A stretch of DNA of 64,000 nt. Origin: Ceratodon purpureus (taxonomy: Eukaryota > Streptophyta > Bryopsida > Pseudoditrichales > Ditrichaceae). The notes beneath the pieces were generated by a model that saw only the letters and a list, made by a program, of their open reading frames with translations, was not told the origin of the DNA and made no database searches. The DNA lies in contig CM026428.1 of assembly GCA_014871385.1 (NCBI GenBank), positions 9,406,772-9,470,771 on the forward strand, given 5' to 3'. The translations under genes were made by a program, and so were the position numbers. Below, in pieces: positions 14,486-62,520 of the stretch. The number at the start of each line of letters is the position of its first letter. Position 1 is the first letter of the stretch.

Positions 14486-17400
14486 GTGATTGGTCTCGGG
14501 ATGCTAGGAAGCCGGGGACCTAACGGATTTCCTCAAGATAATTCTGCTGAAGTTTCGCCGCTAGAGAGTCTGCTGCAGCGAGCATGGTTGCAGTCTCATA
14601 AACCGAAAGTGCAAAGGCGAATTTCGTCTGCTCCGGTTACTGATGTCTCGGTTGGTAGGAGAGGTGGTTCACAGCCTTCCTCGCCAGCATTCTCAGGCTC
14701 ACAACCTTCCTCGCCAGGGCTCTCAGGAATTGTGTCTTCTCAGGTAGATAGTGAAGACGAGCCGGAGAATTTTTTCTTTCACAAATCGAGACTGGATGCA
14801 TCAACAGTGCTCATATCAAGGTTTGCACTTCCGAAGCTCGAATGTTACTCCGAGAAGACCTTTATTCCAAAGATAGTGCAATGGACAGTGCCAAGCAATG
14901 GTTATGGCCGGTCGCAGCCATTCAAGTCGCTGGTAGGTTCCCTTTCCCAGTCGAGTGAAAGTCCGTCATGCATCACCAGGTATTCATCTGGCGTCACAGA
15001 ATCCGAATACAGTAGCACTGGCTCAATCGACTTTGAAGGACAGACATTGCCCTCAGAGCCCTCGCCCTCTAGCTTTTTTGACGACTTCTTTGATACCGAA
15101 TACCCGGAAGCAGAAAAATCTTTGCCGTACAAGACTGATGCTTACCAGACTATGTCGAGGGAGATTGCTGATCTTATTGGCCTAGAATCTTCTGTGGAGT
15201 CTGAAGCATCCGATATTGTAGAATATGAGAGTTGCTGGGCGGACTCTGAACCCTATCGTACCGAAGCTGAAATAAGTATGCTTGAACAAAGCAGCGCTTA
15301 CCAAGCTATGGCCAGGGAGATTTCCGAACTCATTTCTCCGAATCCTGCAGAGCTTGAAGCTGGTAAATCCGAGATCGTCATCAGGAGTGGGGAATTCAGA
15401 CCATCAGAAGAACTGGCGGCTCTGAAGATGATGGAGGCATACGCTGCTATACTAACCAAACACATAAGGGATGTGTCGATGAGTTCTGGTACTGCTGATT
15501 CCGATTCCGATTCCTCGTTCAAGTACCGAACCAGTGATGAGCCAGATACCATTTTAACGTACTTTGATGATGACTGGAGATCATATCTGCAAAATATCAA
15601 TCAGAATTTTACGCCAACCTCGAGTTTCGATTTCAACCTGCTTCTATGTGGCACAGGAGGAGGCTCGAAAGTGTCAGCAGCCTCCTCTTGCGTTAGTCTG
15701 ACGGAACTGCTCTACAGGTATGGCCGTTATTCCGTAGCGTCTGTCCAACGATCTTTCGTTTCTTGACCCAAGAGTTTTAGGTGAAGTGCAAGGTCAACCG
15801 TGAAGGTAGACTCACCTTCGGGTTTGCCAGTTGCATCGAGCAAATGCTCGTTTGAATTCCAGAGATGAAAGTGTTGGAATCGTCATTAAATGCATGCAAT
15901 GCGGCAGGTCTGCACTCGCTGTGAGTCAGGGCAAGGACAAGGACGCGACCGATTTGCTAGCTGAACTGCGAGAGAAAGCATCACCTTACGGAAATCCTGT
16001 AGAACGCATGGCACATTATTTTATGGAAGCTCTGGTCAGTTCGCTCTGCTTTTAGGACCAAAAACTGTGTCAATTTTCAAAGCGGATTGTTTGCTGTAAC
16101 CCAAGCTCCTGTCGCGTCGGTGAAAAGTTTTGAATTCGAATTGCTTTTTAAAATAAAATAAAATCTTAAAAAGCCTTGGAGTAATCGTTGTTATTTGAAC
16201 GGGATTGTACTCTAGTGATAGCCATCTTCAGGGACACCTTGATTTTCATACCTGAAAAATTCACAGAAGAGGATACAATTTTAGGACCATACGAGGAATA
16301 AGTCCTCACAATATACGAGAAATATCAAATTGGCATCATCAGTGACATGATGTCTCCTTTTTCGCTCTTAAGCTCACATGGTAGTTACCGAGTTCTGAAT
16401 ACCTTTGGATCTGCAGGTTGCAAGAATGTCAGGGACCGGTGAAAAACTTTACACTGCCATCTCAAATAGCTGCCCCTCTACCGCCACTATATTTAAAGCA
16501 GTGCGCCTGTACACCGAAAATTGCCCTTTCCTCAAACTTGGTCACTTTTTCACGATAAAATCATTGGTAGATGCTTCTGAAGGCGCCACTCGCGTTCACG
16601 TGATTTCCTACGGAATTGGCTATGGAGTGGAATTCCCAACTCTCATTCAGCAGCTGGCAGAAAGGCGAGAAGGACCGCCCCATCTTCGTATCACAGGTAT
16701 ATAATCTTTGCCCACACTCTGTAGGATTTGGTAGAAACACCGGGGTTACGATTTTTCCTTGATGTGCAGTTTGTAAAGCTCATAGGTTTATGCTTGCGAT
16801 GTTGTTTTCCATAGTTGGATTCAATTACAAGCCTCTGTTCTGTTCTGGCAGGTATTGATACACCACATTCCGGAAACGATCCCTGTTTAAAAATAAAGGA
16901 AACAGGCAATAGACTGGAAGCAATTGCCAAGGACTGTGGAGTGCAACTCGAATTTGTGGCATTGGCTGGAAGTTGGGAATCATTTACGGCTAGAGATATG
17001 TGCTTGAGAGAAGATGAAGTGCTTGCAGTGTGCAGCGATAAGCTACACACTCTTCTCGATGAGTCGGTAATGGCTACAAGCCCTCGCGAAGTTGTATTGA
17101 GAAGGATCCGAAGTATGAATCCCAAGGTACATTTCTAAGGTCACGATTTGCATAATTAATTATAATTTTGTTCCAGTATCTTTGCTTAGGACATATTGCA
17201 CCTGGGCTAATCTAATTAGATCATCAGCGGTAGTTTTGAGTGGCGTTCTATTTCGTGTCAATCTTCTTTTCACTGCATTTTGAGGCAGGTGATTACAGTT
17301 CATCACCTCTTTTGTGATCTGATTGTGCAGGTATTCGTTCATGTGGGCCTGAATATAGGGCTCAATGCTCCCTTTTTCATGACTCGCTTTCGGGAGAGTG

Positions 17401-17774
17401 TCAAGCATTACTCAGCAGTATTTGAAGGGTTGGAGATATCTATGCCTCCCGATGACCCCGACAGAGTTTTAGTTGAACGAGCAATTTTTGGTGTAGAGAT
17501 TATGAACATTGTTGCATGTGAAGGACAAACGAGAGTGGAACGGTCAGAGCCATATCGGCAATGGCAGAATCGACTTCAACGAGCAGGCTTTGCTCAGCTT
17601 CCTTTGAAGAACAACGTTTTCTCCAAAATTAAAGGAATGATGGCCGCTTACCACAAAGACTACGGAGTCTGTAAAGACGAGGGCTGGTTCTTGATGGGAA
17701 TAAGAAACCATATTGTCAAATTTTGTTCGGCGTGGGAGCCTAGGAGCTCTCAAAGTTTTCACCAGATTTTGTAA
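14486..17774 (+). CDS. GRAS transcription factor, LISCL (SCL9/14-like) type, copy 1
   Basis: Five exons: 14486-15717, 15908-16034, 16417-16696, 16852-17126 and 17331-17774. All junctions are GT-AG and in phase, giving 785 aa. The N-terminal 400 residues are Ser- and acid-rich with the motif LLQRAWLQSHKPKVQRR and repeats of AYQAMAREISELI type. The GRAS domain follows: leucine-rich LTELLYRSALAVSQ, a VHIID-region variant VHVISYGIGYGVEFP, a PFYRE-region PREVVLRRIRSMNPKV, RVERSEPYRQWQNRLQRAGF, and a SAW end GWFLMGIRNHIVKFCSAWEP. LISCL members act as nuclear transcriptional regulators, often in stress and detoxification responses. The conserved Asp of VHIID is Ser here. The next gene downstream on the same strand is a paralogue. 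Confidence 0.9.
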
Positions 17775-21029: not shown

Positions 21030-24000
21030 GTGGTCAATGTGGAGATGGCAGGAACTGGACAGCAGTCGGACGGTTCGGTTGAAAGAGGGGGGAGTAAGGG
21101 CTCGTCGTCGTTGGAGAAGCTGTTGCAGCAAGCGTGGATCAATTCGCAGATACCCAAGGTGCAGAGACGGAGCATATCGGCTCCTATTGTAGATGTTTCC
21201 GTGGAGAAGCGAGCATTCTCGCAGCCGTCGGCGGAGCTCTTGTGGGGGGTGGTGTCTGGACGAGCGGGAGATGTCGACGAATTGGCGAAAACCTATTTCC
21301 ACAAGTCTAGGTCTGAGACATCAGCCGAGCTTCTGGAGAAGCTGGCGCAGCCGCAGTTGGAGAGCTTCTCCGACAAGACGGAGGTGCCGCAATCGAGTTC
21401 CTGGAATAGTTCGATGACAAGTAGGGGAGGCTCTGCGGGTGGTTCTAGTGATAAGTCTTCGTCTCAGGATTCGCGGTCGCCGACATATTGCGCTGGGGAG
21501 AGCCTGTTGAGTGATGTGCAGACGCCGACGACGGAAGGGCTTTTCGATGGTGTGGATTTTGACGGTGTGGGTAGTGGGTATGCCGATTTGGCAGCGCAAT
21601 CGGAGCCTCTGGCCAACTTTTTTGATGATCTTCTGACTGATGAGAATCTGGAAGGCGAGAAGTCTTTGTTGCAGCAGACGAGTGCTTACCACGCCATGGC
21701 GAAGGAGATTGCCGAGCTTCTTGACCCAAACGCTGCAACTGTGGATTCTGGGGAGTCGGAGGTTGTGGAAGGATCACAGGAGAGTTATTGGGCTAACACG
21801 GAGTTTTCACAGCTCGAAGATATTTGTGAAGTGGAGAAAAGTAGTGCATATCAGGCTATGGCCAAGGAGATTGCTGATCTGCTGTCTTCGGAGGGGAACG
21901 CTGAAAGTGGGGAGGTTTCAAACGACGAGAACAGCACTAGTGGTGATTTTTGGCCAACTGAGGACCAGACGACGTTGAGGTTGATGGAGGGGTATACTCG
22001 GATGCTGAGCAAGCACATTATGGATGTGAACGGCGTTAGCAGCTCGGACGATGTTGATTACAAATCGTGGATTACCGAGTCGGATGAGCTTATTATGGAC
22101 ATCGATGGAGCTTGGGCGGCTTATTTGGAGGGTTTGTTAGCCAAGGCATCCAATTCGAGGTCGATCCTTGACGGCAGTCTCCTTCCCTGTGGGAAAGCGT
22201 TAGCCTTAGATTTTTCTCAAAGCTGCGCTGTCTTCCCTCCTTGCACCAGCATGACGGAACTGCTCTACAGGTATGGCCATTCTCTGCAACACCTACTGTA
22301 TTCAGAGAAGCTGGCTTAGAATATTGGGGCACTTGCAAGTAGGTACTAAAATTTTGGTATTACAATCATATGTAAGTTTAGTCTAGCAACTTGAGTATTC
22401 CGAGAATATCATTGTGTTAGAGTGCAGTTAACGATGTTCTTGGTTCTTCAAGTTGTGTGATTTCTGTTTAAAGATGAAGCACTTATCTCCTGAGATATCT
22501 AAACTGATGTCTATCCTGAGTCGGATCATTTGTTTGCGATGGCGCAGGTGCGCTCTGGCAGTGAGTCAAAGTAACCCACGTACCGCCAGAGATTATTTGG
22601 CAGAATTGCGAAGCCGCACATCACCCCATGGCGATTATATGCAACGCATGGGGCATTATTTCCTGGAAGCTCTGGTTAGTCGCTTCTCCGTTAACATATT
22701 GTTGAAGGAAAATTGAGGATATTTCATTTGAGCTTGCCTCTTCCATTTTGCTCAGTAGTAATACCGTTCATGTTTTGAAAGTTTAGAGTATTTATTACAG
22801 CGCTGGATGAAGTACCCTCTATTTGTCGGGTTCAGAAAATTTCTATAATTTTGTACTTTGATTTGCAGGTCGCAAAGTTGTCAGGTACTGGTGAAGAACT
22901 TTACACTGTGATCACGAACAACTTCCCGTCGGCTTCGACTATGTTGAAAGCTTTTCGCCAGTATGTCGACTACTGCCCTTACATCAAAATCAGCCATTTT
23001 TTTTCAATGAAAACGATACTAGATGCCTTTGAAGGTGCCGCTCATGTTCACGTGATTCACTATGGCATTCTGTATGGAGTTGAATGGCCTAGTCTTATCC
23101 AACATCTCGCAATGAGGCCAGGAGGGCCCCCCCAGTTCCGTATGACAGGTGCAGCTTGAAATGTCTTTTTATCCTTCCGAGTAGAAATTTTAGAATATGG
23201 CAATGAATTCGTGCTTACAAGTGAGTACATGGTTTATTGAACAGTTCAAATCAACTCTATAACGTTCAAATGAATAGTGTACATTTCTATGTATTTAGCT
23301 CGATTCGTCTGAATCTTCTGTGCTTTTGCAGGTGTTGATTATCCATCACCGGGAGACGACCCCTGCAGGAAAATTCACGAGACTGGGCGGAGGCTTGCAG
23401 AGTTCGCGAAGAGGTGGGGAGTTCCATTTGAATATCATGCTCTAGCTGGAGAATGGGAATCCTTCACAGCAAAAGATTTTAACTTAAGAGATGATGAAGT
23501 TCTTGCAGTAACAAGCGTTAAAGTGCATCACATCTCTGATGAGTCTGTAGTGGGTGCAAGTCCTCGTGAACTTCTAATGCGAAGGATTCGAAGCTTGAAT
23601 CCCAAGGTAAATGTTGCAAGCATGATCCAGTAGTTAATTCTCATATGTTCTGAATTTTTTAATTTTTTCATGTCATATCTTTAAACAAAGCTGTCAGAGC
23701 AATTTGTGATATGCTGGATGTAAGACACCTTTACTCGGTGAACACGAGAGTCCTGTTTTTAATTGCCATTCCTTCATACCCAACCGTGTTTGGAAACATC
23801 AAGTCGGCTGGTGATTTGTACTTACTCTTACCTTATTTCATAGCTCTAATTATCTGTGCTCGATTCGTGTAGGTATTCATCTTCTACGTGGATAACGCTG
23901 CCTGCAATGCCCCACTTTTCATGACCCGCTTTCGGGAGAGCGTAAAGCTTTACACGGCTATGTTCAACGGGTTCGAACTATCTATGCCTCCTGACGACCC

Positions 24001-24313
24001 AGAAAGGGTCATTCTCGAAAGAGAGATGCTTGGTCGGGAAATTTTGAACGTTGTTGCATGCGATGGAAAAGCAAGAGTGGAACGGCAAGAGCCGTACAAG
24101 CAATGGAAAAATCGACTACTACGAGCAGGCTTCCAACAACTGGTGCCCAAGGAAATCATTTACTCCAAGATTAAAGCCATGATGAATACATTTCACAAAG
24201 ACTATGGGGTCGGTAGAGATGAAGGCTGGATACTTTTGGGCATTAAAAACCAAGTCGTTAAAGCTTTTTCAGCCTGGGAGCCTAAACCAGTCTTAGGCTT
24301 GATTGCTTCATGA
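21030..24313 (+). CDS. GRAS transcription factor, LISCL (SCL9/14-like) type, copy 2
   Basis: Five exons: 21030-22270, 22548-22674, 22869-23148, 23332-23606 and 23873-24313, giving 787 aa. Exons 2, 3 and 4 have exactly the lengths of copy 1 (127, 280 and 275 bp) and the same phases, so this is a tandem duplicate. The N-terminal motif LLQQAWINSQIPKVQRR and repeats AYHAMAKEIAELL and AYQAMAKEIADLL match copy 1. GRAS motifs are LTELLYRCALAVSQ, VHVIHYGILYGVEWP (the VHIID Asp is His), PRELLMRRIRSLNPKV, RVERQEPYKQWKNRLLRAGF and a final FSAWEP. The role is inferred from family: nuclear transcriptional regulation. The start at 21030 could alternatively be the in-frame ATG at 21045. Confidence 0.9.
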
Positions 24314-26076
24314 GGATTCCTGTTATATTCTTCCCAACAATCTCTGATTACACGAGATGGTCATTGAGCCAGTCTACAGAATCGTTCCACTTCTAGGACC
24401 GACTCTGGAGTCTTTCATCCTCCTGAGCTTCTGCTCCAATTGGAATCAGGATTTGAGACGTCGGATCTCAGTGATCAGTATTTTGAACACCACCGAAGTT
24501 GAACCGCGTGGGCTCCGTGTCGGCCATCACCCTCTTTCGAAGCACCTGTTGCTTGCTTGGGAACTTCTTCGGCCTGAGATTCCTGCTGGATGTAAGATAG
24601 AAAGGAAAAGCCTCTGCATGAATGCGCAGTGTCAACCTCCAGTGAAGTCCATTGAGGCCAAAGCCCCCCTTCATGGGCCATGATCACCACTGGCCCAGGC
24701 TCCCAGAACCGGCCCCGGAGATCATGAATACAGTAGAATACTAATACGTGGTCATTAAAGTTGTGTCCCAGTTTGCAGGTAGAGATCATTAGACAGTTTT
24801 GCGGAATTCCATTTCAATCTACAGTATGACCATTGAAACATTGTATATGACTAATGCTACTCCCTATTTTAGAAGCTGAGAAACTTTGCCCTGGATTCTG
24901 CATTCTATTCCGTCTATTTACTTTCCATTGCAGCGATTTCTGAACGTGTGAACAAGTAAAGTGCTCACACCATTTACACTTGGTCCATCAGTAATTTTCT
25001 AGGAGCAAATGGGCAACCTGTATTTCTCACAACTCATTCCTTGTTCTGTTTGCGCTAAATCAGTGGGGTAGAATAGATTCAAAAGAAGACGATCCTAGCC
25101 ATTTAATGATAAAAAGTTCTCCAGGATACCAAGTTACATTGACAAAAAGTTCTCTACATCATTACATTACAATACCAACAACAAATCATCATTTCTGATG
25201 ATTCAGAAGGCTGAACAACCCCCCTCAGTTCCCCTCACTACTCCCATAACCGTCCCCCAAGCTCTCCACATTCTCGCACACTAGTAATATAAATAGAACC
25301 CTAATTACAACACCCCCGAAAACATCGACACGTGCGTAACGGAATTCCACCCCTATTACAATTACGTCCCCTCAACATCAGTACCAGAAAACCGTCAGAG
25401 AACTAAACTCTTCGTCTAGACTCTACACCAGTCCAAAATCTACAATCACTAATTCAAAATGTACGTCAATCGTTGAATATTGGGTACAGTGACGCTATTT
25501 CGAGCACCTCCTTGACACTTCATCGACGCCCCTCATTGGTCGACTCAAGCCTCATGACGTGCTCGGCATCGAAGAACACAAATCAGTCACTTGTGGACTC
25601 AGTTCCTGATTCCGGAAGTTCGATGCACACAAGACTCAAGACCACCTGATCTCGCTCCAGACACACACACAATCAATCAATCAATCATTTTGTAAGTCAA
25701 AGACCTCACCTTCTCATCACTCTCTCAGTTTTCATTTCGCATCTTGAAGCTCATTTTTCTCCAACCTTCACATCATCTGGTATCATCTCAGATGGTGCTG
25801 TTTTGAGCTCCATGGTGGATGGTTTGCAATTCATATGTGAAATCTTGTGTTGGTAGTTTTGGAGTGAAGCTATGGTGATGTTTTGATGTGAGGGGTTATG
25901 TGTAAGGGTAGGTGTTATGTGGGAGATCGGTAGAGGTTGGAGATGAGAAGGTGAATTTGTTGGAGGGATTGTGGAGATGGTGATTTAGGGTTTAAGGCTT
26001 TTGGATGTGGGGAAGGGGTTGTTTCAGGTCGGAGTGGTGGTGAGAGGGTGGGTGAGAGCTCGGGGATGAGGCGGCC
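24314..26076. other. Intergenic region between GRAS copy 2 and the SDF2-like gene
   Basis: The first part is probably the GRAS 3' UTR. 25060-26076 lacks recognisable exons and likely contains the promoter and leader of the SDF2-like gene. Overlapping frames near 24357-24789 on both strands are unconvincing. Confidence 0.4.
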
Positions 26077-27000
26077 ATGAGCTCAGACGGTGAATTGTCT
26101 TCCACAGCCGCAGATCTGGCACCGGGATCGCCTCGGGGGTTTGGAGGTTTGGAGGAGTTTGTGGGGTCTGCGTCCGGGGTGCGTTCGCGCCCTGTGGTTG
26201 CAGGAGCGCAGCGGCGTGAGCTTGAGGAGTTTCTGAGACGGCTTGCGGAGGAGCGCGCCGGGGCGCCGCCGCGGGAGGAGGAAGTGGATCGTCGGAGTCC
26301 AGAAGTTGTTGAGTTGGGGAGTTCGTGGTTTCGTAGCGTTGGCTTCCTTCAGCTGACGTTCGCGATGGGGTTTCTCTCCCTGGCGCTGGTTGGGTTGTTG
26401 GCTATTTTTCAATCTACGGTTTCGCCACCCGTTGAGGCCGCCGTGCAGGGGAAAGAGGTGACGTATGGGAGCGTGATTAAGCTCCAGCATGACCGGACGA
26501 AGTATAGGTTGCACTCGCATGATGTTCCTTATGGGAGCGGGAGTGGGCAGCAATCTGTGACTGCGTTTCCGGGTGTTGAGGATGCTAATAGTTACTGGAT
26601 GGTGGAGATTGTTGATGATGGGCATGAACAGGGCGATGTGATACCTAATGGCGCCATTGTCCGGCTTCAGCATGTGCGGACGCGGAAATGGCTTCATAGC
26701 CACTTCCATCAGTCGCCGCTCTCTGGGAACCTCGAGGTTAGTGGTTTTGGGGGAGATGAGCAGACTGATACTGGGGACTATTGGAAGCTGGAGATCGAGG
26801 GGAAGGACTCTGTGTGGACTCTTGACCAGAAGGTGCGGCTTCGTCATGTTGATACTAATGGGTACCTTCACAGCCATAACATGAAGTACAACCAGTTGAA
26901 TCAGCGGGAGGTTTGCGGCGTGACGAAGAAGAATGCTGATAATCTCTGGTCTGCTGCGGAAGGGATCTACTTCCGTCCTAAAGGTAGCAGTCTGGAATGA
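26077..27000 (+). CDS. SDF2-like MIR-domain protein with N-terminal membrane anchor
   Basis: Single exon, 307 aa. Residues about 126-300 carry three MIR-type repeats: VTYGSVIKLQHDRTKYRLHS and SGSGQQSVTAFPGVEDANSY, then VRLQHVRTRKWLHSH, then VRLRHVDTNGYLHSHN. This matches stromal-cell-derived-factor-2-like proteins, which act in ER protein quality control. Plant SDF2 is usually about 220 aa with a cleaved signal peptide. Here a hydrophilic N-terminus of about 87 residues precedes one hydrophobic segment (about 88-111), implying a type II membrane anchor with MIR repeats in the ER lumen. The C-terminus ends PKGSSLE, with no HDEL-type signal. The N-terminus is GC-rich. Confidence 0.85.
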   Translation: MSSDGELSSTAADLAPGSPRGFGGLEEFVGSASGVRSRPVVAGAQRRELEEFLRRLAEERAGAPPREEEVDRRSPEVVELGSSWFRSVGFLQLTFAMGFLSLALVGLLAIFQSTVSPPVEAAVQGKEVTYGSVIKLQHDRTKYRLHSHDVPYGSGSGQQSVTAFPGVEDANSYWMVEIVDDGHEQGDVIPNGAIVRLQHVRTRKWLHSHFHQSPLSGNLEVSGFGGDEQTDTGDYWKLEIEGKDSVWTLDQKVRLRHVDTNGYLHSHNMKYNQLNQREVCGVTKKNADNLWSAAEGIYFRPKGSSLE

Positions 27001-38687: not shown

Positions 38688-41600
38688 TTATAGAAAATCT
38701 GATAAGTACTTTACCATTACAAGTTTTGATGGAAGTGCTTCTCTTGTCATCAATAGACACGATTTTGAACTGAAGAGATTTTTAGAAATAGAACTTGAGT
38801 TATAAAATGTTATAGAATTGATTATATAAAAATACACATACTCAAAATTGATGCATTCTTGATGCATTTTTCTAATCATCTATTTTGATTTTCTTAGTTT
38901 TTTTTCGTATTTATTCAACAATACACAAGATAAAATGGTATTTACCAACTATGTATAGGAGGATGGTAACAAACAATACAATCTTCACGATAATTGACTG
39001 ATGGCGGCCCACAAGCCACACAATTTTTAGTAGAATCAACTTTGAAGTCATTTGCATTTAAACACTTTGATGATTTAAGACCATTCAATTTGCCATTGTT
39101 CATAAAAGAATGACCATTTTTGGCAACTTTTTTAGCTCTTTCAAAAGATTTGCAAACATGGTAACTTTGAGTTTTTTTCAAATTGCAAGCAAGCATAGCC
39201 ATAAAATCTCTTTCTTCAAAAGAATTCCATAATTTTTTCTTAGTAAAGTTTTCTATCTTCTTCTCTTCCTTGACTTTAAAATTTTCTGCAACACCTTTGA
39301 TATTGTCTTCAAAATGTTGTTTGTTAAAACAAACATGTACTCCATGTTCTGAAGATTGTTTTTTATAACAAACATGAACGTAAGGTCTTTCTGAAGATTG
39401 TCTACTTTCACATGCATGAACATGTCCTTCAGAAGAATTTTTATCATAACATGTATGAATCTGCCCTTCTGAAGATCTTTCATCATCGTTCAAAGATGAT
39501 ATTAATTTATCATCATTCAAAGATGATATTACTTTATCGTCGTTCAAAGATGATATTAATTTATCATCATTCAAAGATGATATTACTTTATCATCGTTCA
39601 AAGCTGATGTTACTTTATCATCGTTCAAAGATGATATTACTTTATCATCGTACAAAGATTTACTCGTACTTTCACTTGAAGAATAATAACTAGATTTTGA
39701 TTTGATTTCAGTGTTGTATATATCTTCTGAGGATATACTTTTAGTACTTGAATTTGTTAACAAATGTGTATTTGGTTGAGAATACAATGTGAGTACATCA
39801 TTTTCATTCGCATTGCAAGGATTGCATAAACGAGGTAATGATTTTGGTAATTTTTTATTGCCTTTAGATTTTATATAACTCAAAGATTGAGCTCCAATTT
39901 GATACTTCCAACCTTTTTGTAACCAAATTAATCGTCTACATCGAAATCCAGAGTAATGTGATTGAATCTTAATTGCAGCAGCATTCAATCTTCGCTGCAA
40001 ATTATTGTTATTAGTTGTGTATATAAACTTATATATTTAATTTTTAAGTTTGGAATATTTTTTGAATTTAAAAATATTTTAGATGGCACATGTAAAATTT
40101 ACCTTGAAGTTATTTAAGACAGCTGAGAAAAATCTTCCCCATATAGGGCCATTTTTACGTTTTTGAATTATTGGATTTGTTTTAGTAAAAGTCATCCACG
40201 AGCTTGGTAGACTTTTAGACTTCAAAACTTGAAGTTCTTTTCTTGAATTTTTGGTGTTTTGAATTTTTCCATGAATCTCTTTAGAGTTGTCTTCATTTAT
40301 TTGAGGTACAGAAACTATGTATTTCCAAAAATATTTTAAAATAAGACCAAATGAATATAAAAATATATATTAAAAGATAAAAATATGTAATTACATTCAT
40401 TCTATTGAAGATTGTGAAATGTAGAATGCTAGAAATTTTAGAAGATGGATTAAAGATAGATAAAGATAGTTGGCTTTTATTATTGAAATTTTGAAATTTT
40501 GAAAATTTTATTATTGGTCTAATAATGATTGTTTTTCAAGACTAAAGCAAAATTGCATCAAGATGAAACAATTCTTAGTTTGTTTTCTCAAAAAATATCA
40601 ACAACCATTTTTTTAGACTTGCCTAGATAAAAAAAATGAGGTCATCAAGGTTGATCTTGATATTTAAGATTATTATCATTATTAAATACTAATTTTTAAA
40701 ATTTAAATTATACTTTTGCTTAAGAATAATTGTTTTAGTAACTAGTTACCTTCATGAGTTTTTATCAAATCTTGAGTATTTAATTCAATATTTTGATTTT
40801 CTGAGTCTTCAATACTTTTAGTATTTAAATCATTATGGAGTGTATCTACTTCACTATTTGTAATTGTTGATGAGTCATTTGTTGAACATGGTCTAATGGA
40901 AACATCTTCAAATGTACATTTAGATTCATTTGCATCACATTCATTGAATTGATTTGATTTATTAAAAGATGTTTCTTTATTAGATGGATTCTTCATTGAA
41001 ATATCACAAATTGACTCCAAGCGTACAGATTCTTCAGTAGTTTGTGAAACATTTGTTCCAAGAGTGGAAGGTTTATTTGAACTATTTGTTTTTGAAGTAG
41101 ATTCATCATCTTTTATTGATGATATTAATTCAATATCATTTTCAAATTCATCCAAGTCATATTCATTGCAACAATCATCCTTGGTTTCAATTGCATTATT
41201 GGACAAACAATTGTTGTTTTTGGTTTCATTAGACATATTTGGGTTGGAAGTCATAGGATATATGTTTGTATACATCATGCTTTCATGCCATTTAGAAGTA
41301 GATGTTTCTTCCAATTCCAGTCGGGAATTTAAACAAAAATTGATATCATCTTTTATATTAGAACTTGAAATGTCAGTGTCTTCATGTTCATTGTTTACAT
41401 TTAATGGCACATCCGTAGAATTAACATCCTCAAAGTGACAATTTATGTTAAATACAGAAGTTGAAATGTCATATGGATTTAGTTCAATTTCATTTATACC
41501 CACATCTTCATCATTCATTTCTTCTTCTTCAAAGCTTTCAATTGATTCATTGTTCAAGTCAGTTTTGATTGACTCTTTATAAAAATTTAACTCTTGTTTT

Positions 41601-47599: not shown

Positions 47600-49636
47600 A
47601 GCATTAAAAAATACTAATACAGAACGTGGAATCAATTTATTTTTACTATTACTACTATATAAACATATAAATAACATTTTCAATGTAGTGAAGGATCCAT
47701 AATAACATCATGTTTTGTAAAAAAGATAACAAAGTATTAACAATTTTTATTTTTGTTTTTAAATAATCATAGTATAAAGCAAATTGTATGTACCTTTAAA
47801 ATGTCTGTAATACCTTTATATATTCTTTAAAACAATCTAAGATATGAACAAATTAAAAACATCATTCAACTCATATTCATCTTCTTGTGGAGCTTAATCA
47901 CTTCTTTTATTTTTATTTTATTTTATTTTATTTTTCTTTTCTATCTATCTACCTGTTCTTTTAAAAACAAAATTTGCCAAAGTAATATCTTTTCTATGTT
48001 GAATCATGACAATGACTCTTGTTTCTTTTTGTGTCTTTCTTTTATCTCAAATTATTTCAAATTTGTAGTTCATAACAAACATGTACAAACTCTTCCTCTA
48101 AATTTGGAACTTTATTAATTTTAAATTCAAGCTCATTTGACACATTACTTGAATGTGCTGTATAATTCATTATATTAAATTATTCTTCACAATATCTTTT
48201 AAGATCATCACCTAGCATCTCAGTTGTTGCTACTTCACTTAATGATGAAAGGAAAGTATCTTTCATTTTCTTTAAAAAAAAATACAACTACTTATAAATT
48301 ATATGACAAATTTTATTTTATTGCAAAGTACATATAATACGATGATTTAAATTTCAAATATATTGATTGTTAATTTTATATTTATGATGTTAATTTGTAC
48401 TTGTTTTCTCTCTGTAGTAAAGGGCTTCCCTTTTCTTGTGTCAAAAAAAAAATAAAAATAAAAATAAAAATGTTATACAATAAATACCTTTTATTCAATT
48501 TTGAAAAAAAAAACATGAACAAATTGATGAAGATTATGTTGAGGAAGAATAGTTCTTAAATAAGAGGAAAATGTACAAACCCTTTAGGCTTTTCATTCGA
48601 AATGAACATTCAATCATTTGAACATTCAAAATTGGCTGGCTTACCAATTGTACATAAACTGCATGATAGGCTACAACAACTGCATGCTTGTCTGCGGGTA
48701 TATTTGTGCAACTGCATCAATTGCACTATGGTATTAACTATGGAGCTTTTTGAAGTCAACACGGAAGAACTCTACAATGGTATTTTTTTAAGCATAGTTT
48801 CTAGAACTTTAATGCTATTGCGGCAAATGCTTACAGACTGGACTTAAAAAAACCTACATCATATTTAGAGAGGTAGATGATTAGTCAAATGAGGAATGGG
48901 GCATGATTCCTTGGGTGTCAGAACAACTTAGATTTGCAACATGTAAGCATCGTAATGTCTTTGTAAAATGATGAGCTTCTAAGGTAGAGAAACCGAAATC
49001 GGTTAACGCCCTCAAGGCGTGCAGTAGGGTTACTTTCAAACAGGGAGGGGGCAGACCGAAAATGGAGAACTTTTGAAAGAGCAACCGAGTTTTGGTGACT
49101 GGAAGCTGGTTTAGGGGGAGTCACGTGGACCATTGCGCATGTCAACCATGATCTGAATTAAATCTTATTAAATTCACTGACAAAGTGGCTTATGTGAGCA
49201 ATTTTAGGATGCCCATGTTAATCGAATACCAACTTTGGGAGCGTGATTTTTTGACAAACCAGATGTAGATCTAGAAAGTTAGAGCCACAAAATTTTGTTC
49301 ATGCATTAACGGTTTTAGATATTTCCGTGATCACCTTGTAATGTATGTGCTCACTGATTTAATGAGCCACGAAGTGAGATGTGCTCACTCTCATTGTTCG
49401 TGTCTTCTCTGTGCCTCTCAATGCATGCTGAGTTCTGTTTAGGGTGTGTGAAAGTTTGTCACGAGTGAAAATGAGCATGTGGCTATGATCAGTAGGGTCA
49501 GATTGTAACAGCAAAGTTGAATTCTCATTCTCTGTATTGCATTGACACAGTACACTTCACCTGAGATACCATATCGTCACTCTACTCTACTAGACCAAAA
49601 TCTCTTGCTACTTGCTGCGATTTGCTTCTGTGAACC
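47600..49636. other. AT-rich gap and pogo 5' flank
   Basis: 47600-48560 is AT-rich with (TTTTA)n and (AAAAAT)n runs. From about 48600 composition becomes mixed. The left end of the pogo-like element probably lies here, but I could not find its TIR. Confidence 0.4.
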
Positions 49637-50583
49637 ATGGCGCGAGATTGCACACGTCGGTCATTCTTTTCCCCTGAAGACGACTTGCAGTTCAGCTTGA
49701 ACGGCAATGGACCAGCTGAGGGTGAGCAGTCAAGCTCAAGCAGCTCAGAAGACGAGGCACCTGTTGGAACTCAGCAGGTTGATTATGAGCCTCTCGAGCG
49801 TGTGGAGCGCGTACAGACACGGCGGAGGCATAGAGAGATTGGACCAAACGGTGATCACCGCCAAGGAGGATTAGGTGGAAATTGGCAGAGCTCCATGCAG
49901 CCTACAGTGTCACAGCGGGGACGCGGTGGTCATCGAAGAGGTGCCTCCAGCATGCGCGTCTACACGAATGCCCCCCCTATGCCGCCCAGCTCTTCTCTGC
50001 AGGGAATCCGGGGTGCGCGGATGGGACTGTTCATGTGGACATAGGCAGAGACAGCGACGGTTTAGCAGTTGAAGACATCACGGCGATAGACCCGCCTCTT
50101 TGCCCGGACCGGCTGCAGAGGGCTTCTGGAGATGTGCAGGCCGACCATGCTCAAGGAGATCGCCCGCGGGGGAGACCAGTAGGCTCTCACCAAGGCAAAA
50201 AAATCCTGAAAAATGGAAATTGGTCAGACAAACAATTGGCGGATGCAATCGCAGCTCACGATGGTGGATTGAACATGAGGAAAGCCGCTCTGAAGTTCAA
50301 CATACCTTACACGTCATTCAGGGACCACCTCTACGGCGTGAGGACGGACAGGCTTCGCGGGGTGAAGACCGTCCTAAGTGAAGATGAGGAGCGACAGTTG
50401 GCTGATTTCTGCATGGCGATGGCTGAGAGGGGGCATGGGCTCTCCTCAACGGCACTAAAAATGAAGGTAAGTGAAATCACCATGGATAGAATCACACCTT
50501 TCCAAGATGGCATATCCGCGGAGGGGGGGAGGCGGGTGGATGAGATGTTGGAAGCGCAGGCATCCGAAGTTGAGCCTGCGAAC

Positions 50584-50591
50584 AGCAGAAG
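50584..50591. repeat. Left target-site duplication of the foldback element
   Basis: AGCAGAAG, matching AGCACAAG at 54824-54831 at 7 of 8 positions. Confidence 0.75.
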
Positions 50592-51089
50592 CAGAGTTGT
50601 TCAAATCGACGTCCGACCCGGCTCCGTACCTCCGGACGTCCGACCCCGACGTCCTCCGTCCCGGTCGTCGCGTCCCCAACGCTCCAGAATTACGTTGCGG
50701 TAAAAAAAATTCGACCGCAGGTGGGTAAAAATATTTCCAACCGTCCGATCAGCCGATCCACCCACGCCGCCACATCTCCGCCGTCGGATCGCGGGGACGG
50801 CCTCGAAGACGGCCGCGGGGTCGCCGGCGACGGCCGACCTTCGATCCGACGGCCACAATACAGCCGTTTTCGGCCATCACAGGCCGTCGGATGTGGGCGG
50901 CCGTGGTCCGCCGTCCGATCCCCAGGCTGTCTCCGCGGCCGACCGCGTGACGGCAACGGGGTCGGCCCCTCCGCGGCCGCTCCGATCCAACGGCCACGAT
51001 CGGGCCGCGACGGCCGCATCGTGGCCGCCCGATTCCGGCGGCCGTCGAGGGCCGTTGGATTGGGCGGCCGTCCGCACGGACAGCCGCGG

Positions 51090-51945
51090 AGACGGCCGCG
51101 AATTTAAAAAAAAAAAAACCCGAATCTTAAAATCTTCATAACTTCTTCAAAACTTATCCAAATCGGGCTTATGAGGTGTTTTTTGGCATCTACGTTTCCT
51201 GTAGATGCCAAAAAACATCTCATAAGTCCAATTTAGACAAGTTTTGAAGAAGTTTCGGGAATTTGAAGAATTCGGGGAGGTGAGGGGTCGGCCGTCGGCG
51301 GAGACGGTGGGGCCGACCCCGCGAACGGCCGCGGAGACGGGGGCCGTCCGCGGGGACGGCCCCGGAGACGGCCCTCCGTTCGCGTGGAGGCGAGGTCTCG
51401 CAAGGCCTTCCTTCTTTTCTTGGGTTTTTTCTCTAGAGACGGCCTCCCTTCCCTACCTCCACTCGTCCAACCTTGACAAAATAATTCCATTTCTAGATAC
51501 TCTAAAAACAAAATCATTACCGAATTAGAAATTTCAGACATATCCTTGAAATCATGGAAAATGTCCTAAAGAACTTGTAATCGGAATTGTGGATTCCGCC
51601 TTGATGTTGGGGTATATTTTAGATGGAGATATTAATGTCCTTCAATTGTTGTCGCTCTAGTATGGTTTGCAAACATAATCTTAATGTCTAGAAGGAAGAA
51701 TACATTTGTTGTGGAAATGAAATTATGGCCCATGGGCCTATAGAAGAGGGAGGTATGGAATGGGGGGTACAACTTAAAAGGTAATGAGAAGCTAATAAAA
51801 AATAATGTACTTTTATTTGAAGACATTATTTCGTTAGGTAATAAAATTAAAGGAGAATTCGACATGGATTTCTCTTACATTAATATGACAAGTTTGTATG
51901 TTTTTGGCTTTAATTTTATATGGCAAGACAAATCCTTTTTTCTTG
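51090..51945 (+). repeat. Left inverted arm of the foldback element
   Basis: Reverse-complements 53680-54540 almost perfectly over roughly 0.86 kb. The translated 94-codon frames in the two arms differ by one residue. The outer part is GC-rich (GACGGCC/GGCCGTC), the inner part AT-rich. Confidence 0.85.
51168..51226. repeat. Perfect-core hairpin inside the left arm
   Basis: 26-bp stem with one mismatch (CTTATGAGGTGTTTTTTGGC + ATCTAC), 7-base loop GTTTCCT. The similarity extends outward through AAAACTTATCCAAAT-type sequence to about 55 bp per side. An identical copy lies in the right arm near 54402-54461. Confidence 0.8.
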
Positions 51946-53679
51946 AATGGAAGATTGGAAAAAAATAAAGGGATAAACTTGAAATTTAGAAATGAATTTG
52001 AATGAGAGGATTTGAAAGGTATATTGTAGAGGAGGTAACACTTAGAAATTAGAATTCAAATTAAATTAGATAGATGTTGAAATTGTGTGAAGGAGGTTGG
52101 AGGACAGATTAATTAGAATTGAGGATTGTAAATTTGAATTAGAAGTCGATGATGTTGGACAAAAAATTCATTATAAGTGATAGAAGATAGAAATTTAAAT
52201 ACAACAAATTTTAGTTCTAATAATAAATAAATTTATTAAAATATTAAAAAACCTAGCCATCTGACAAGGATGATGTTTAATTTTAAAGGGTGAGTGAATT
52301 TTGTAGGTTTGGGAGTTGACATTAAGAGAACTGTTTCTTTCTTTTGGAATGAAGGATATGCTAGTGTTACATTTGAGTACTTGGGCTAGTGAATGGCACA
52401 TTGTTTGCCTTCCATTCCTTTTAGACAAACATTGAGTCTCTATGGCTTAGAGTTTAACAAATCTCGTCAATTTATTATTCTGAGATTTATGAATTTTTTT
52501 CCATCTTAAAGGTGATTCAAAATCATTATTTTTATGGATGAAGGACATAACATGTGGATTCATCTACATGTGGAAATACAAATACATACTTCATAGCCAA
52601 AAATAATATCTATTATGATTAAACAACTCATTTCTTTAAAATCATTGGCATTCATATTAATATTCCATTCTTAGTATTCTATTGTTCTGGATCCCAGCTT
52701 ATGTAAAGAATAGAGTATTACTACAGAATGCTTCTATAAAAAATACGAAGAAGTAATGGATAATTTATATATGTTTATTTATTTATTTAATTATTTTGTA
52801 TTCTTCCATTAGTCTCCGATTCTATATTTTATTTTTATACTTTTTCCATTTGCCTTCCTTCTATCTTCTTATTTTTTTATTATTACACTATTTTCCATTC
52901 TATCTTCTTAATTTTTTATTATTACACTATTTTCCATTCTATCGTCTCTTTAGTTTTTAATCTTGACATTATTCTTCCATCTTATCTTCTCATTTTCCTA
53001 TCCTTCCATTCCTCTCCTATCATTTATTTATTTATTTAATATTCCTCTGATCTGTCTCCCATTCTATCTTTTTATTTTTAACTATCGGAAGAAAGGAAAA
53101 ATAAATAAAAGATTAGGGGATTATATTATGTACAAGACAATAATAAAAAAAAAAACAATTGAAATAAAATACAATATGACGGTAAATGAAACATAACAAA
53201 TAACGGCCAGAGAGACAAACTACAATGGCAAAAGGTTTGAAGGAAATAGATGTGTATAGAGAAGATAGATATCAAGGGAAAAGATATAAAATAAAAAAAA
53301 TACATGAGAGGAAATAATAAATCAAGAAGATAATTAGAATAAAAGATCAAATAAAAAATATTAATAATAATTGCAAGAGTGGAAATGACATACAAGAAGA
53401 AATGGGGAGTATGAAGTGAATAGAGAAAACCATGTCATGGTAATAACATTATGGCAAAAGAAGAAACTAAATAAAAATATCCATCTCAGAAAGGAGTTTT
53501 TTTTTTTAAAGATTAAAGGATTAGATAGAGCACGAGACAATAATTGGAAAATAGTTAATTGAAATTATATAGAATATAATGGTATTTGAAAACCTCAAAA
53601 AATTACCCTGAGATATACAAATTACAGTGGACATAATTTTGAATACCCAAGAAAGCAAGTAATTAGGAAAAGAGCATAT
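51946..53679. other. AT-rich spacer between the foldback arms
   Basis: About 1.7 kb without coding signal. 52860-52945 has two copies of a roughly 45-bp unit (CTATCTTCTTA + T-rich + TTATTATTACACTATTTTCC). 53110-53250 and 53505-53640 are diverged direct repeats sharing GACAATAAT and AATTGAAAT blocks. Confidence 0.6.
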
Positions 53680-54540
53680 TCATGAAAAAAAAGGGTTTGT
53701 CTTGCCATATAAAATTAAAGCCAAAAACATACAAACTTGTCATATTAATGTAAGAGAAATCCATGTCGAATTCTCCTTTAATTTTATTACCTAACGAAAT
53801 AATGTCTTCAAATAAAAGTACATTATTTTTTATTAGCTTCTCATTACCTTTTAAGTTGTACCCCCCATTCCATACCTCCCTCTTCTATAGGCCCATGGGC
53901 CATAATTTCATTTCCACAACAAATGTATTCTTCCTTCTAGACATTAAGATTATGTTTGCAAACCATACTAGAGCGACAACAATTGAAGGACATTAATATC
54001 TCCATCTAAAATATACCCCAACATCAAGGCGGAATCCACAATTCCGATTACAAGTTCTTTAGGACATTTTCCATGATTTCAAGGATATGTCTGAAATTTC
54101 TAATTCGGTAATGATTTTGTTTTTAGAGTATCTAGAAATGGAATTATTTTGTCAAGGTTGGACGAGTGGAGGTAGGGAAGGGAGGCCGTCTCTAGAGAAA
54201 AAACCCAAGAAAAGAAGGAAGGCCTTGCGAGACCTCGCCTCCACGCGAACGGAGGGCCGTCTCCGGGGCCGTCCCCGCGGACGGCCCCCGTCTCCACGGC
54301 CGTTCGCGGGGTCGGCCCCACCGTCTCCGCCGACGGCCGACCCCTCACCTCCCCGAATTCTTCAAATTCCCGAAACTTCTTCAAAACTTGTCTAAATTGG
54401 ACTTATGAGATGTTTTTTGGCATCTACAGGAAACGTAGATGCCAAAAAACACCTCATAAGCCCGATTTGGATAAGTTTTGAAGAAGTTATGAAGATTTTA
54501 AGATTCGGGGTTTTTTTTAAAAAAAATTCGCGGCCGTCTC
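53680..54540 (-). repeat. Right inverted arm of the foldback element
   Basis: Near-perfect reverse complement of 51090-51945. Outside it, 54541-54660 is built from GGGGACGGCC-type units with the same motif as the left side but not alignable base for base. Confidence 0.85.
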
Positions 54541-54823
54541 CCCGGCCGTCGCCGGGGACGGCCTCCTCCACCGCGGGGACGGCAAGGGGCGGTCGCCGGG
54601 GACGGCCCCCCCCTCCGCGGCGACGGCAAGGGGCCGTCACCGGGGACGGCCCCCTCCACCGCGGCGACGACCGCTTTCTCCCTCCGCAACCCCTCCCCTG
54701 CGTTCAATGTGTGGTTTCACCCTTGGGTGAAACCTGTGCGGGTGATTTTTTTTTCCTAAGTCACAGGACGTCTTGGGGCGCTGGCGGACGTCCTGAGCGT
54801 CCCGGACGTCCGTGACAGCCCTG

Positions 54824-54831
54824 AGCACAAG
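54824..54831. repeat. Right target-site duplication of the foldback element
   Basis: AGCACAAG, partner of 50584-50591. The pogo frame continues immediately after it (codons for LDIAQAKALCKENV). Confidence 0.75.
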
Positions 54832-56940
54832 CGTTAGACATAGCGCAGGCAAAGGCTTTGTGCAAAGAGAACGTTGCAAGTTTCTATGATAATTTAGAGA
54901 AATTGTATACCATGCATGGGTACTCACCTGATCGTGTATGGAACTGCGACGAAAGCGGCGCGTAAGCTGGAAAGAACGGAGGCGGTCTGGTGATTGCGAA
55001 GACAGGTGCCCGTCGCGTCCACTCCCTTGTATCAGACCAGCGCGAGTGGCTATCCGTGCTAGTTTGCGTCAATGCCGCAGGCAGAGCAATACCCTCCTTC
55101 TATATCTTTCGCGGCAAGCGTTTTGGAGCGAATTATATTCAGCGGTGCGAGCCCGGGGCCACAATGGCCATGCAGCCCCGGGCGTGGATGACAACGCATC
55201 TGTTTTCAGCATGGGTGAGTCACTTCATTGCTTTGGTACGTCGTTTTAGTACCATCTCCCCTGACCATCGACATCTTCTGATCCTAGATGGACATTGTTC
55301 ACACGTCACATTAGATGTTGTGCATGAAGCCAAGAAAGCAGGTTTAGATTTACTGACCCTTCCATCTCATACTTCTCACGTACTTCAGCCCCTTGATGTG
55401 AGTCTATTTAAACCTTTCAAACTGCATTTCAGAGCTTATAGAGATTACTAGACCTCCTGCAACATGAATCAAGCGGCTACTAAAGAAACTCTTGCTCATT
55501 GGGTTTCTCTGTCATTGAAAAAAGCTCTAACTCACCAGAATATCACGAGTGGATTTTCTGCTACTGGGATCATGCCCCTTAACCGCACAGCAGTTGACGA
55601 TCACATGACTCCCTCGACAACTTCCAGCCTGCACCGGAGGCATCCCCAAACCTGCAGCAAATTGAGACAGAGGGGGTTACTGAAGGGGGCATTGCCGAGA
55701 GTGTACAGTGTGAGCAAGTACCGCAAGAGAGAAGCAGCCAGTGTTAGGACGTACTACAAGAGGGGTCTCATGGTGAGGAACAGGAAGGCGATGTTGAGGG
55801 CCACGGACATGTCCATGAGAACTCGGAAATTGCAGAGGAGTTGGCTGAGGCGCCGAATTCTCAGGCGGAGCATTATTTCGTGGACCTCGAAACTGATGAC
55901 CCTAGCGTGTCTGAGGAGATAGTCGGTTTTCAACCAGAGGGCGAGGAGCACAATTCCATAACCCAGTTCCTCACTCTTCCCACCGTAACTGAGCTGAGTA
56001 AGCCGCGGAATAGGGACCCATCCTGGATTACACGACCTCCAAAATTCTAACCGCAACAGAATATGAGGAAGCGGTCCAACGACTGAAAGACTCAAGAGAG
56101 AACCTGGCAAGAGAGAAAGAGAGGAAGGCAATTGTGATAGAAGCTGAGAAGAGAAGGAAACTCACGGAGAGGGAGGCGGCAAGCATAGCCAAGGCCGCTG
56201 CGCGTGAAGAAGCCGCGTGAGAGAAAGAATGTCGCGCCGCACAGCAAGCGGAGCTGCAGGCACGGCGCCGACATAAGAGGGAGCAGGCCGCCAGCTTGAA
56301 AGCCACCCGACTCGCAGAAGCTGCTGCCGCGAAGGCTGCGAAAGCAGCCGAGAGAGCCAGGAAGGCCATGGCTCGAGAAGAAAATCAGCGTCAAAGGGCC
56401 GCGAGGGCTGCAGAGAATGTACAAGGGCGCTAAAACCGTGGAGGGAGCGCCGAGGTCGAAGGCATGCCGGAAGACTTCCAATTTGACGTGGGAGGTGAGC
56501 AAAATCGCCCAAGGTCGTCGTTGCCAGTCCCACAGCCCCTTCCGCAGTATTCCTCCGTGCCAAATCCCAACCTCCAGTACTTCTTTCCTTCGCCTTCTCC
56601 ATTCACTCCTATGCCATCAAGCGGGCAAATCCCCCTCCACCATATTGGCACCCATGAGCAATCCATGTTACCATCACACCCAGCACAAAACCTACACTAC
56701 CAATTCTCACACCCTTTCCAATCTTCACTGATTTTCTCTCGTCCCCAGCCTCAGTGGAGCCTGCGATCGCAGCCGGAAGGCAGGCGGGAAGGAGAGCGAC
56801 CAAGTGACCGTTTGACGTGCGCAGCTTATCCAGGCACATGCGGGAACTTCTTCAGGGCCCTTAAGTCACGCAACCGGGAGAGAAGGCGACCAGTTCCAAG
56901 GACACAAAGCCACGGCAAGGGGAGGGGAGATGAACTCTAG

Positions 56941-58859
56941 GCTGGAACAACTTTGTGCCACCTACAGTAAACTTAGACTCTTGAATGAGTTCACTGTAGT
57001 GCCAGACAATGTGAAGCTGCGTTTATTTTTGGGAACCTTTCGGTGCGGTTTTGTGTGATCTTAGTTAACCGTTTTAGGTGTAACTTTGTGTAGAAAAGGA
57101 TAACACAAGGTTCGGTTTAGGAAGAATCTAGTATACAAGAAGGGGGTTTGACAAACTTCCCACTTTGAGAAATTGTAGACAATTATTTAAGGGAGAAAAA
57201 TTTACGAAACAACTTGCATTCTTCATCATTTCTTCTTCTCTACTTCAAAAAAATTTCACATGTCAATTTATAACTCCACTCTTTCTGGTCCAATCACCTA
57301 TTTTCACTGTTTTTGGTTCCTCTACCTTAGATATAGTGTAGATTTGCATATGTATCACAAACGTACGAGACAATTTAGCTCTCATACAACCTTCACCTAT
57401 CAATCACCATTTTTATGCAAAAAAATAATTTTTATTTTACTGCTCAAATTTTCAGTTGATTATCGTGCATAGATTCATCTATCTCTTTTCATTTATCATC
57501 TAAATCACATAACATCTTTTAAATAGTGGTTGTTTATTGTACATTTCATATACAATTCCATGTGTAAATCTACTTCATTTATTATGTTCATCACTAAACT
57601 TATATAATTGTATATGATTTGTAAAAAATTAAATTTTACAATCAAATAAGTTTTTTCAACAACAGAAACAATTTATTTGTATTTGGTATCTATTTTTAAA
57701 TTAATTTAAATTTAACTCTACATACACAATAACCTATTTTATTTGAAAGATTGTATACAATCTTGCATTTAAAGAATAATGTGCATCTAACATGATTCCT
57801 ACTAAAACATGAGTATAATTCTGTTATAGTGACAAATTAATTATAATAAAGATCAATATGAAACGTCTTGCTTGGATTAAAATATTTTTTTCTTAATTAT
57901 ACTATTCTTGGAAAATAACTTAATTAATATAAAATTAGATATTACACGTAATTAATAACTACACTTTAAAAACCTTTTGACTTCCTTCTACGATTTGCTA
58001 AACAGACCATAATTTCAAACAGCCAATCTAAGTGAGCATCCTCAAGTAAGCCATATCAAAATTCATAAATTGTTAGCTGTTAATGTCAAAAACTCTGATG
58101 AATTAATGAATGATTAAAAAAGAAGAAAAAATTAAAGCATTTAAACTCAAATAGAGTTTGGCCTTGAAGTATGAGGGGATAATTGATGCAAAGTAGCGCT
58201 CACTGCTCAAGAGTTACTCAGTACCGGTGTTCAAAGTTCTCGTCAAAGAAGTCGTTCCATGTAGCTTGGATCTAAACTTTTATCCATTCAAGACTAGAAT
58301 AACTAGGGGAGACATGTCTATACTTTAAAGACCTAGGGACAAGCCAGAAGAGATGAATGTGACAAAGCTTCTAAAGAACAAACTGATGTTGGAAAGGAAC
58401 ACTAAGACTAAAACAATATGCACTACAACATTCATGACGAGATTATCTAGTTTTCTATTCCGCTCATTGTCAATTTTGTTACACTAAAATATTACCTGAA
58501 TGAGTCCAAGAACCACTTGTGCATTTTATTCTCCAACTATGGCCACTGGATAGAAAATACAAATTGAGCTTCTTTTTATTCCTTAGCTTCTCAACTGTAT
58601 TATGCATAAATATCCATTATGAAATTATAAAGAATACATCTCAAATACACCCCTCCTTTGTTTCATTGTTGTTGCAATGTTTGGTGCATTAGTGCACTTT
58701 TTCAAAGTTGTGACAACATTGACTGAAAATTGGTCAATGGTTATATGAAACAGAAATGGAACATTTTGGAATGTTTAACTAATGGCTCAATGTGTACACA
58801 AAGTTAAATCAAAGTTAAATTGTTCCAACAGTGTGTCATAGTCACACCATTAAATTTGA
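56941..58859. other. 3' flank of the pogo-like element, AT-rich
   Basis: The right end of the pogo-like element is probably in the first few hundred bases, but no TIR could be matched to the left side. The rest is AT-rich with no coding signal. Confidence 0.4.
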
Positions 58860-62369: not shown

Positions 62370-62520
62370 AACTATCGTCGTTTTTAATTTACCATTTTGA
62401 GGATTATATTGCACGGTGTTGAGTGGAGTTGGTCACATAATACAAGAAAAAGAGAGCTTTTCCGCATTCTCGTGAATGAGAAGCGACATTTTTCAAATGA
62501 AAAAGGATGGGTTTATTAGG
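62370..62520 (+). repeat. Dispersed repeat, copy 2 (partner near 2115-2258)
   Basis: Same orientation and block order as the copy near 2.1-2.3 kb (see that entry). The alignment ends near 62510. Confidence 0.6.

Follow-up and report, generated by a model that had tools for sequence, protein, structure and literature searches.

A non-autonomous, probably hAT-type insertion with an internal inverted duplication, nested in a pogo-like transposase pseudogene

Organisation of the locus

The stretch of DNA analysed here, called the window in the following, comprises 64,000 nucleotides of contig CM026428.1 (positions 9,406,772 to 9,470,771 of the forward strand) and appears to be plant nuclear DNA. 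It contains a pogo-like transposase pseudogene that is split by an insert of exactly 4,232 bp. The insert has defined boundaries, is flanked by an 8-bp target-site duplication (TSD), leaves the codon phase of the gene continuous, carries a long internal inverted repeat and holds no recognisable coding sequence. The locus is a real nested insertion, ordinary in kind, with an internal inverted duplication that is unusual. The explanation in which we have considerable confidence is that of a nested non-autonomous insertion, probably of a hAT-type cut-and-paste transposon, in an older pogo-type transposase gene. The main parts of the locus are as follows.

49637-50591 (start approximate), plus strand: left part of the pogo-like transposase pseudogene, with HTH_psq
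50584-50591, no strand: left TSD, AGCAGAAG
50592-54823, no strand: inserted element of 4,232 bp without recognisable coding, delimited by TSD, end motifs and phase continuity
54824-54831, no strand: right TSD, AGCACAAG
54832-56950 (end approximate), plus strand: right part of the pogo-like pseudogene, with DDE_1

Boundaries, reading phase and order of events

The two copies of the TSD are identical at 7 of 8 positions. The ends of the insert read CAGAGTTGT on the left and the complement of CAGGGCTGT on the right, with a match of 7/9. An earlier note on this DNA had proposed these exact boundaries and an 8-bp duplication with one mismatch, and both proposals are borne out. For a fixed pair of positions and equal base frequencies, a match of at least 7/8 has a hand-calculated chance of 25/65536, or ~4e-4. 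A junction scan of 1,000,000 start/end pairs returned nine that combine a TSD of at least 7/8 with a terminal inverted repeat (TIR) of at least 7/9; the other eight fall within G+C-rich repeats or a G-run, and a CAG start is found only at 50592/54823. The pattern CAGRGYTGT, which was built from both insert ends, occurs twice in the window, both times at these ends, with 1.8 occurrences expected by chance. Because at least two matches are also present in 52/100 shuffles, the motif alone proves little. A search for further copies of the insert within the window found just one 30-bp match outside the element (E 0.001).

The codon phase 50201+3k on the left side carries on as 54831+3k on the right side of the insert, and the joined empty site is open from 50501 to 54962, with the first in-phase stop at 54963-54965. 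This crossing of the empty site by one codon phase confirms that the pogo-like element came first and the insertion second, which is the order that the earlier note had assigned. The phase at the left junction differs from that of the upstream open reading frame (ORF) with HTH_psq, and a frame change lies between them. The note had also described the gene as stopping in mid-domain and resuming in the same frame. The shared phase stands, whereas the interruption in mid-domain is a by-eye reading that is graded as plausible, because the short sequences flanking each junction gave no Pfam match. This lack of a domain, which leaves continuity through HTH_Tnp_Tc5 across the junction without a Pfam match, counts against the proposed insertion into a transposase gene.

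A phase kept on both sides would also be expected if the pogo-like gene naturally contained the 4.2 kb as an intron or spacer. However, the segment starts with CAG and ends with CTG instead of GT...AG, and it carries a TSD and paired end motifs, which makes such an origin extremely improbable.

The interrupted pogo-like pseudogene

HTH_psq (PF05225) upstream and DDE_1 (PF03184, E 2.4e-23) downstream of the insert lie on the same strand. HTH_psq scored 21.7 bits in a 90-aa piece (50200-50469), with a cut-off of 20.4, and 19.6 bits, under the cut-off, on the 244-aa ORF; HTH_Tnp_Tc5 was not detected in the gene by the Pfam scan. Candidates for the catalytic D residues, chosen by eye, are encoded at 54948, 55287 and 55395; the second and third are separated by 35 residues, corresponding to DD35D. 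The host element therefore displays two features of the pogo superfamily, a DDE_1 domain with DDxD and a DNA-binding domain of the HTH_psq/CENP-B type. The gene has decayed independently of the insertion: by eye, the left part changes frame near a G-run at about 50525, while the right part contains in-phase stops at 54963-54965 and 55449-55451 followed by later frame changes, and the C-terminal part is scattered across other frames. The DDE piece (161 aa) had no match in PDB up to E 1. Its pattern matches in viral contigs (6) and genome contigs (132) included no confirmed relative, a result that counts neither way, as these sets consist of viruses and prokaryotes.

Candidate ends of the pogo-like element were located further out.

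48980-48981, no strand: TA, candidate left target duplication, adjoining the candidate TIR
48982-49006, plus strand: candidate left TIR, beginning AGGTAGAG, 20/25 against the right end
57303-57327, minus strand: candidate right TIR
57328-57329, no strand: TA, candidate right target duplication, adjoining the candidate TIR

The alignment score of these candidate TIRs (33) was matched in 2/1000 shuffles. Among 16,224 TA pairs, one other, located in AT-rich sequence, likewise reaches 20/25. The candidate element (48982-57327) spans 8,346 bp and, minus the insert, 4,106 bp, which falls inside the range of 1.2-5.2 kb given for pogo elements in the excerpted text of PMC7386202.

In the excerpt of a 2020 survey, Lemi is the sole pogo family of land plants, Fot is found in fungi, and Fot-like elements, in which a TA duplication is present, are found in Chromista, protozoa, one green and three red algae. 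The excerpt of PMC7325037 describes a Selaginella clade, number 38, of two sequences and places DD35D in groups 33 to 40. With Fot and Fot-like elements the host element shares HTH_psq, DDE_1 and DD35D; unlike them it sits in an apparent plant, and for land plants the excerpted survey gives Lemi only. Judged only by its HTH_psq and DD35D signature, the host element looks Fot-like rather than Lemi-like. Because the Lemi range DD29-42D also covers 35, the DNA-binding domain bears most of the weight for this label, and HTH_psq, its main support, is itself close to the cut-off. Among the literature matches listed, as far as their titles tell, none concerned an HTH_psq pogo element in a non-eudicot land plant.

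Termini, coding content and superfamily of the insert

Both tips of the insert carry a short repeated motif.

50592-50653, plus strand: left terminus, CAGAGTTGT and GACGTC at 50608, 50635 and 50648
54762-54823, minus strand: right terminus, CAGGGCTGT (minus strand) and GACGTC at 54767, 54787 and 54805

CAGRG is an end pattern of hAT elements, and the insert combines CAGAG/CAGGG ends with an 8-bp TSD (7/8) and subterminal repeats at both tips. Each terminal 62 bp, a limit chosen after the sites were seen, contains three GACGTC sites, and the two tips together hold 6/11 of the sites in the whole window; at least three sites were obtained in 15/5000 shuffles of the left terminus and in 0/5000 of the right. 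According to the excerpted text of PMC3942097, hAT elements measure 2.5-5 kb, their TIRs 10-25 bp and their TSDs 8 bp. For the hAT element Hermes, the excerpt of PMC10368747 reports 8-bp TSDs, putative subterminal repeats towards the tips (five in the first 55 bp per end) and a target preference of nTnnnnAn.

In total, 39 stop-to-stop ORFs of at least 60 aa overlap the insert. The translations of 38 were scanned whole against Pfam and none reached the cut-off; the remaining one is the pogo-like ORF, which was scanned as far as the junction. Weak, unrelated matches in three insert ORFs (MjAgo_N-like, E 0.059; DUF2678, E 0.094; DUF4440, E 0.068) were taken as chance. Over the whole window, Rfam gave no match at the gathering score, and no tRNA was found.

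Several observations weigh against a hAT origin. Duplications of 8 bp are also possible with P, Novosib, Merlin and Zisupton-type elements. The terminal match of 7/9 is shorter than the TIRs of 10-25 bp given for hAT elements in the excerpt of PMC3942097. AGCAGAAG agrees with nTnnnnAn in its A at base 7 but departs from it at base 2, where it has no T; nTnnnnAn is a preference and no rule for every hAT group. An alignment equal to that of the 120-bp insert ends was obtained in 22/2000 shuffles, and no hAT transposase was found among the 38 ORFs of at least 60 aa scanned with Pfam; nor did the material analysed show a second copy of the insert or an intact relative of the pogo-like element. The earlier note had called the termini hAT-like, a description made plausible by the length of the TSD, the CAGRG ends and the subterminal repeats, with the missing hAT coding sequence standing on the other side. 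Taken alone, the hAT label, which draws on structure only, is in our view probable.

The insert may also be a real insertion of another superfamily with 8-bp TSDs, such as P, Novosib, Merlin, Zisupton/KDZ or an atypical, long-armed Mutator-like element, an account that overlaps the best explanation apart from the superfamily. It gains from the fact that the label depends on how long the TSD is and on a handful of end bases. Among Mutator-like elements, those with long or multiple TIRs resemble the insert in their long arms and AT-rich, possibly captured interior; they differ in that the terminal match of the insert is short and its TSD is 8 bp, compared with 9-11 bp as is usual for Mutator-like elements. 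In plants, most Mutator-like elements have long TIRs (PMC3310237, in excerpt). Drosophila FB/Galileo foldback elements are likewise similar in having long inverted repeats with internally repetitive stretches around a central loop; in the insert, however, the long arms are internal, and its TSD is 8 bp while that of Galileo is 7 bp (PMC2775673, in excerpt). Galileo was formerly classed as Foldback-like and turned out to belong to the P superfamily (excerpt of the same paper), and the foldback form is therefore no superfamily criterion. Non-autonomous hAT elements (Ac/Ds-like) of plants agree with the insert in the 8-bp TSD, short CAGRG ends, a motif repeated inside both ends and the lack of recognisable coding; the large internal inverted duplication, the 7/9 ends and the missing T at base 2 set the insert apart from them. 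As the CAGAG/CAGGG ends fit the hAT pattern and the TIR is short, another superfamily appears rather unlikely.

The internal inverted repeat and its loop

The interior of the insert is dominated by two nearly identical arms.

51110-51941, plus strand: left arm of the internal long inverted repeat, 829/832 complementary to 53687-54518
51125-51269, no strand: older AT-rich palindrome in the left arm, 84% self-complementary, repeated in the right arm at 54359-54503
51942-53686, no strand: AT-rich, CpG-poor loop of 1,745 bp between the arms, G+C 0.265
53687-54518, minus strand: right arm of the internal long inverted repeat

The arms differ at 51118, 51332 and 51933. Between the arms and the ends of the insert lie 518 bp on the left and 305 bp on the right. 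The earlier note had called the insert a foldback element: a long inverted repeat is indeed present, but it is internal, the true termini match only at 7/9, and long inverted repeats reaching out to the termini, as in foldback elements, are absent. Inverted homology was found neither between the halves of the loop (score 31, maximum of 50 shuffles 41) nor between the gene flanks of the insert (score 16, maximum 19). The palindromes, repeats I2 (82%) and I3 (84% self-complementary), are predicted to form a strong DNA hairpin (fold z-score -12.6). They appear older than the arms, judging by a self-identity of 82-84% compared with 99.6% for the arms, and the copies at 51125-51269 and 54359-54503 possibly represent a separate small element. 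A direct repeat was also noticed in the AT-rich loop (53108-53191 and 53508-53591, 74% identical, 400 bp spacing).

The near-identity of the arms would be expected of an assembly or read artefact, in which a read folds back on itself. Such a folded read should give the left outer region and the gene reversed after the second arm. What actually follows is a different end, a second TSD and the continuing gene, and the arms are separated by a loop of 1.7 kb, so that we consider this origin very improbable.

Two nested events are conceivable as well, with the 832-bp-arm inverted repeat as a separate foldback element within a hAT-like element. This would account for arms that fall short of the ends and for outer regions (474 + 260 bp) without collinear match beyond shuffles, the alignment score being 30 and the best of 50 shuffles 32. 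Against it, a by-eye look at the arm boundaries revealed no duplication, and G+C-rich CGGCCGTC-type repeats occur both inside and outside the arms. In addition, the 44 aligned bp directly outside the arms match at 34/44, and arm and outer region look continuous. A second insertion of this kind is improbable.

The ratio of observed to expected CpG falls from 1.44 in 50592-51400 to 0.57 in the AT-rich inner portion of the left arm and to 0.30 in the loop, where it is noisy at low G+C (9 CpG in 1,745 bp). In the two parts of the pogo gene it is 0.78 and 0.77, and the higher value of 50592-51400 suggests that the insert is less decayed. The pattern fits an AT-rich segment of other origin between G+C-rich transposon arms. 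The values of 1.05 in the right outer part and 1.01 in the right arm lie below that of the left side and weigh against the best explanation.

Timing and homogenisation of the arms

The mismatch in the TSD had been taken by the earlier note to imply that the insertion is not brand new, an argument that turned out to be weak. From the divergence of the arms (3/832, 0.36%), a mismatch in 8 bp is predicted with a probability of 0.029 (0.006-0.081; Fisher p 0.038). It follows either that the TSD was inexact from the outset or changed by a chance mutation, or that the arms were homogenised later, and the TSD mismatch is a poor clock for the insertion. At the arm edge, divergence jumps from 0.4% to 23% (Fisher p 9e-12), in a 44-bp comparison that is repetitive, partly homopolymer, picked at the alignment edge and may evolve by slippage. 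This jump favours homogenisation or a recent re-duplication. With an assumed plant rate of 7e-9 per site per year, the arms would be ~0.26 My old (0.05-0.75); no date was drawn from this value, as conversion would reset the clock.

Other features of the window

The ORF at 26056-27000 has its best PDB match in 3mal, a stromal cell-derived factor 2-like protein (E 1.4e-79) which we take to be from Arabidopsis. Other ORFs of the window encode GRAS, a Sina-type zinc finger and a retroviral-polymerase SH3-like domain, the last of which we read as Copia-like. Tandem gene copies at 16403-17742 and 22856-24284 are 72-76% identical in DNA over three stretches. A GRAS domain is present in an ORF of the first copy, the translation of the second is similar by eye, and both copies appear by eye to be split into several exons. 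A 27-bp tandem repeat (39477-39659, 6.7 copies) lies in a 364-aa minus-strand ORF and encodes LNDDKVISS-type repeats. A dispersed repeat pair (2139-2246 and 62394-62504), 60 kb apart, is 83% identical over 111 aligned bp, and no ends were recognised by eye.

Conclusions

We infer from these features the superfamily of the insert, its mobilisation in trans and the formation of its arms. In the proposed sequence of events, a transposase encoded elsewhere would bind the CAGRG ends and the GACGTC subterminal repeats, excise the element from its donor site and join it to the target across an 8-bp stagger, the fill-in of which would yield AGCAGAAG/AGCACAAG. The interior would be an inverted duplication in which two arms, 99.6% alike, enclose an AT-rich segment that was possibly captured, and the arms would either be of recent origin or owe their similarity to gene conversion. 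More tentatively, the locus may combine a hAT-type insert, the arms of which were gene-converted after insertion, with a Fot-like pogo host that the excerpted sources do not list for land plants other than Selaginella. If this were true, a foldback-like structure could arise and persist inside a transposon with short TIRs.

Nested insertions order the transposon activity of a genome, and here the boundaries are exact. The near-identical arms next to diverged outer regions make arm homogenisation testable across copies of the element. The interrupted gene, in turn, may extend what little is recorded of non-Lemi pogo elements in plants, and the Fot-like signature of the host element may possibly be a more useful lead than the insertion itself.

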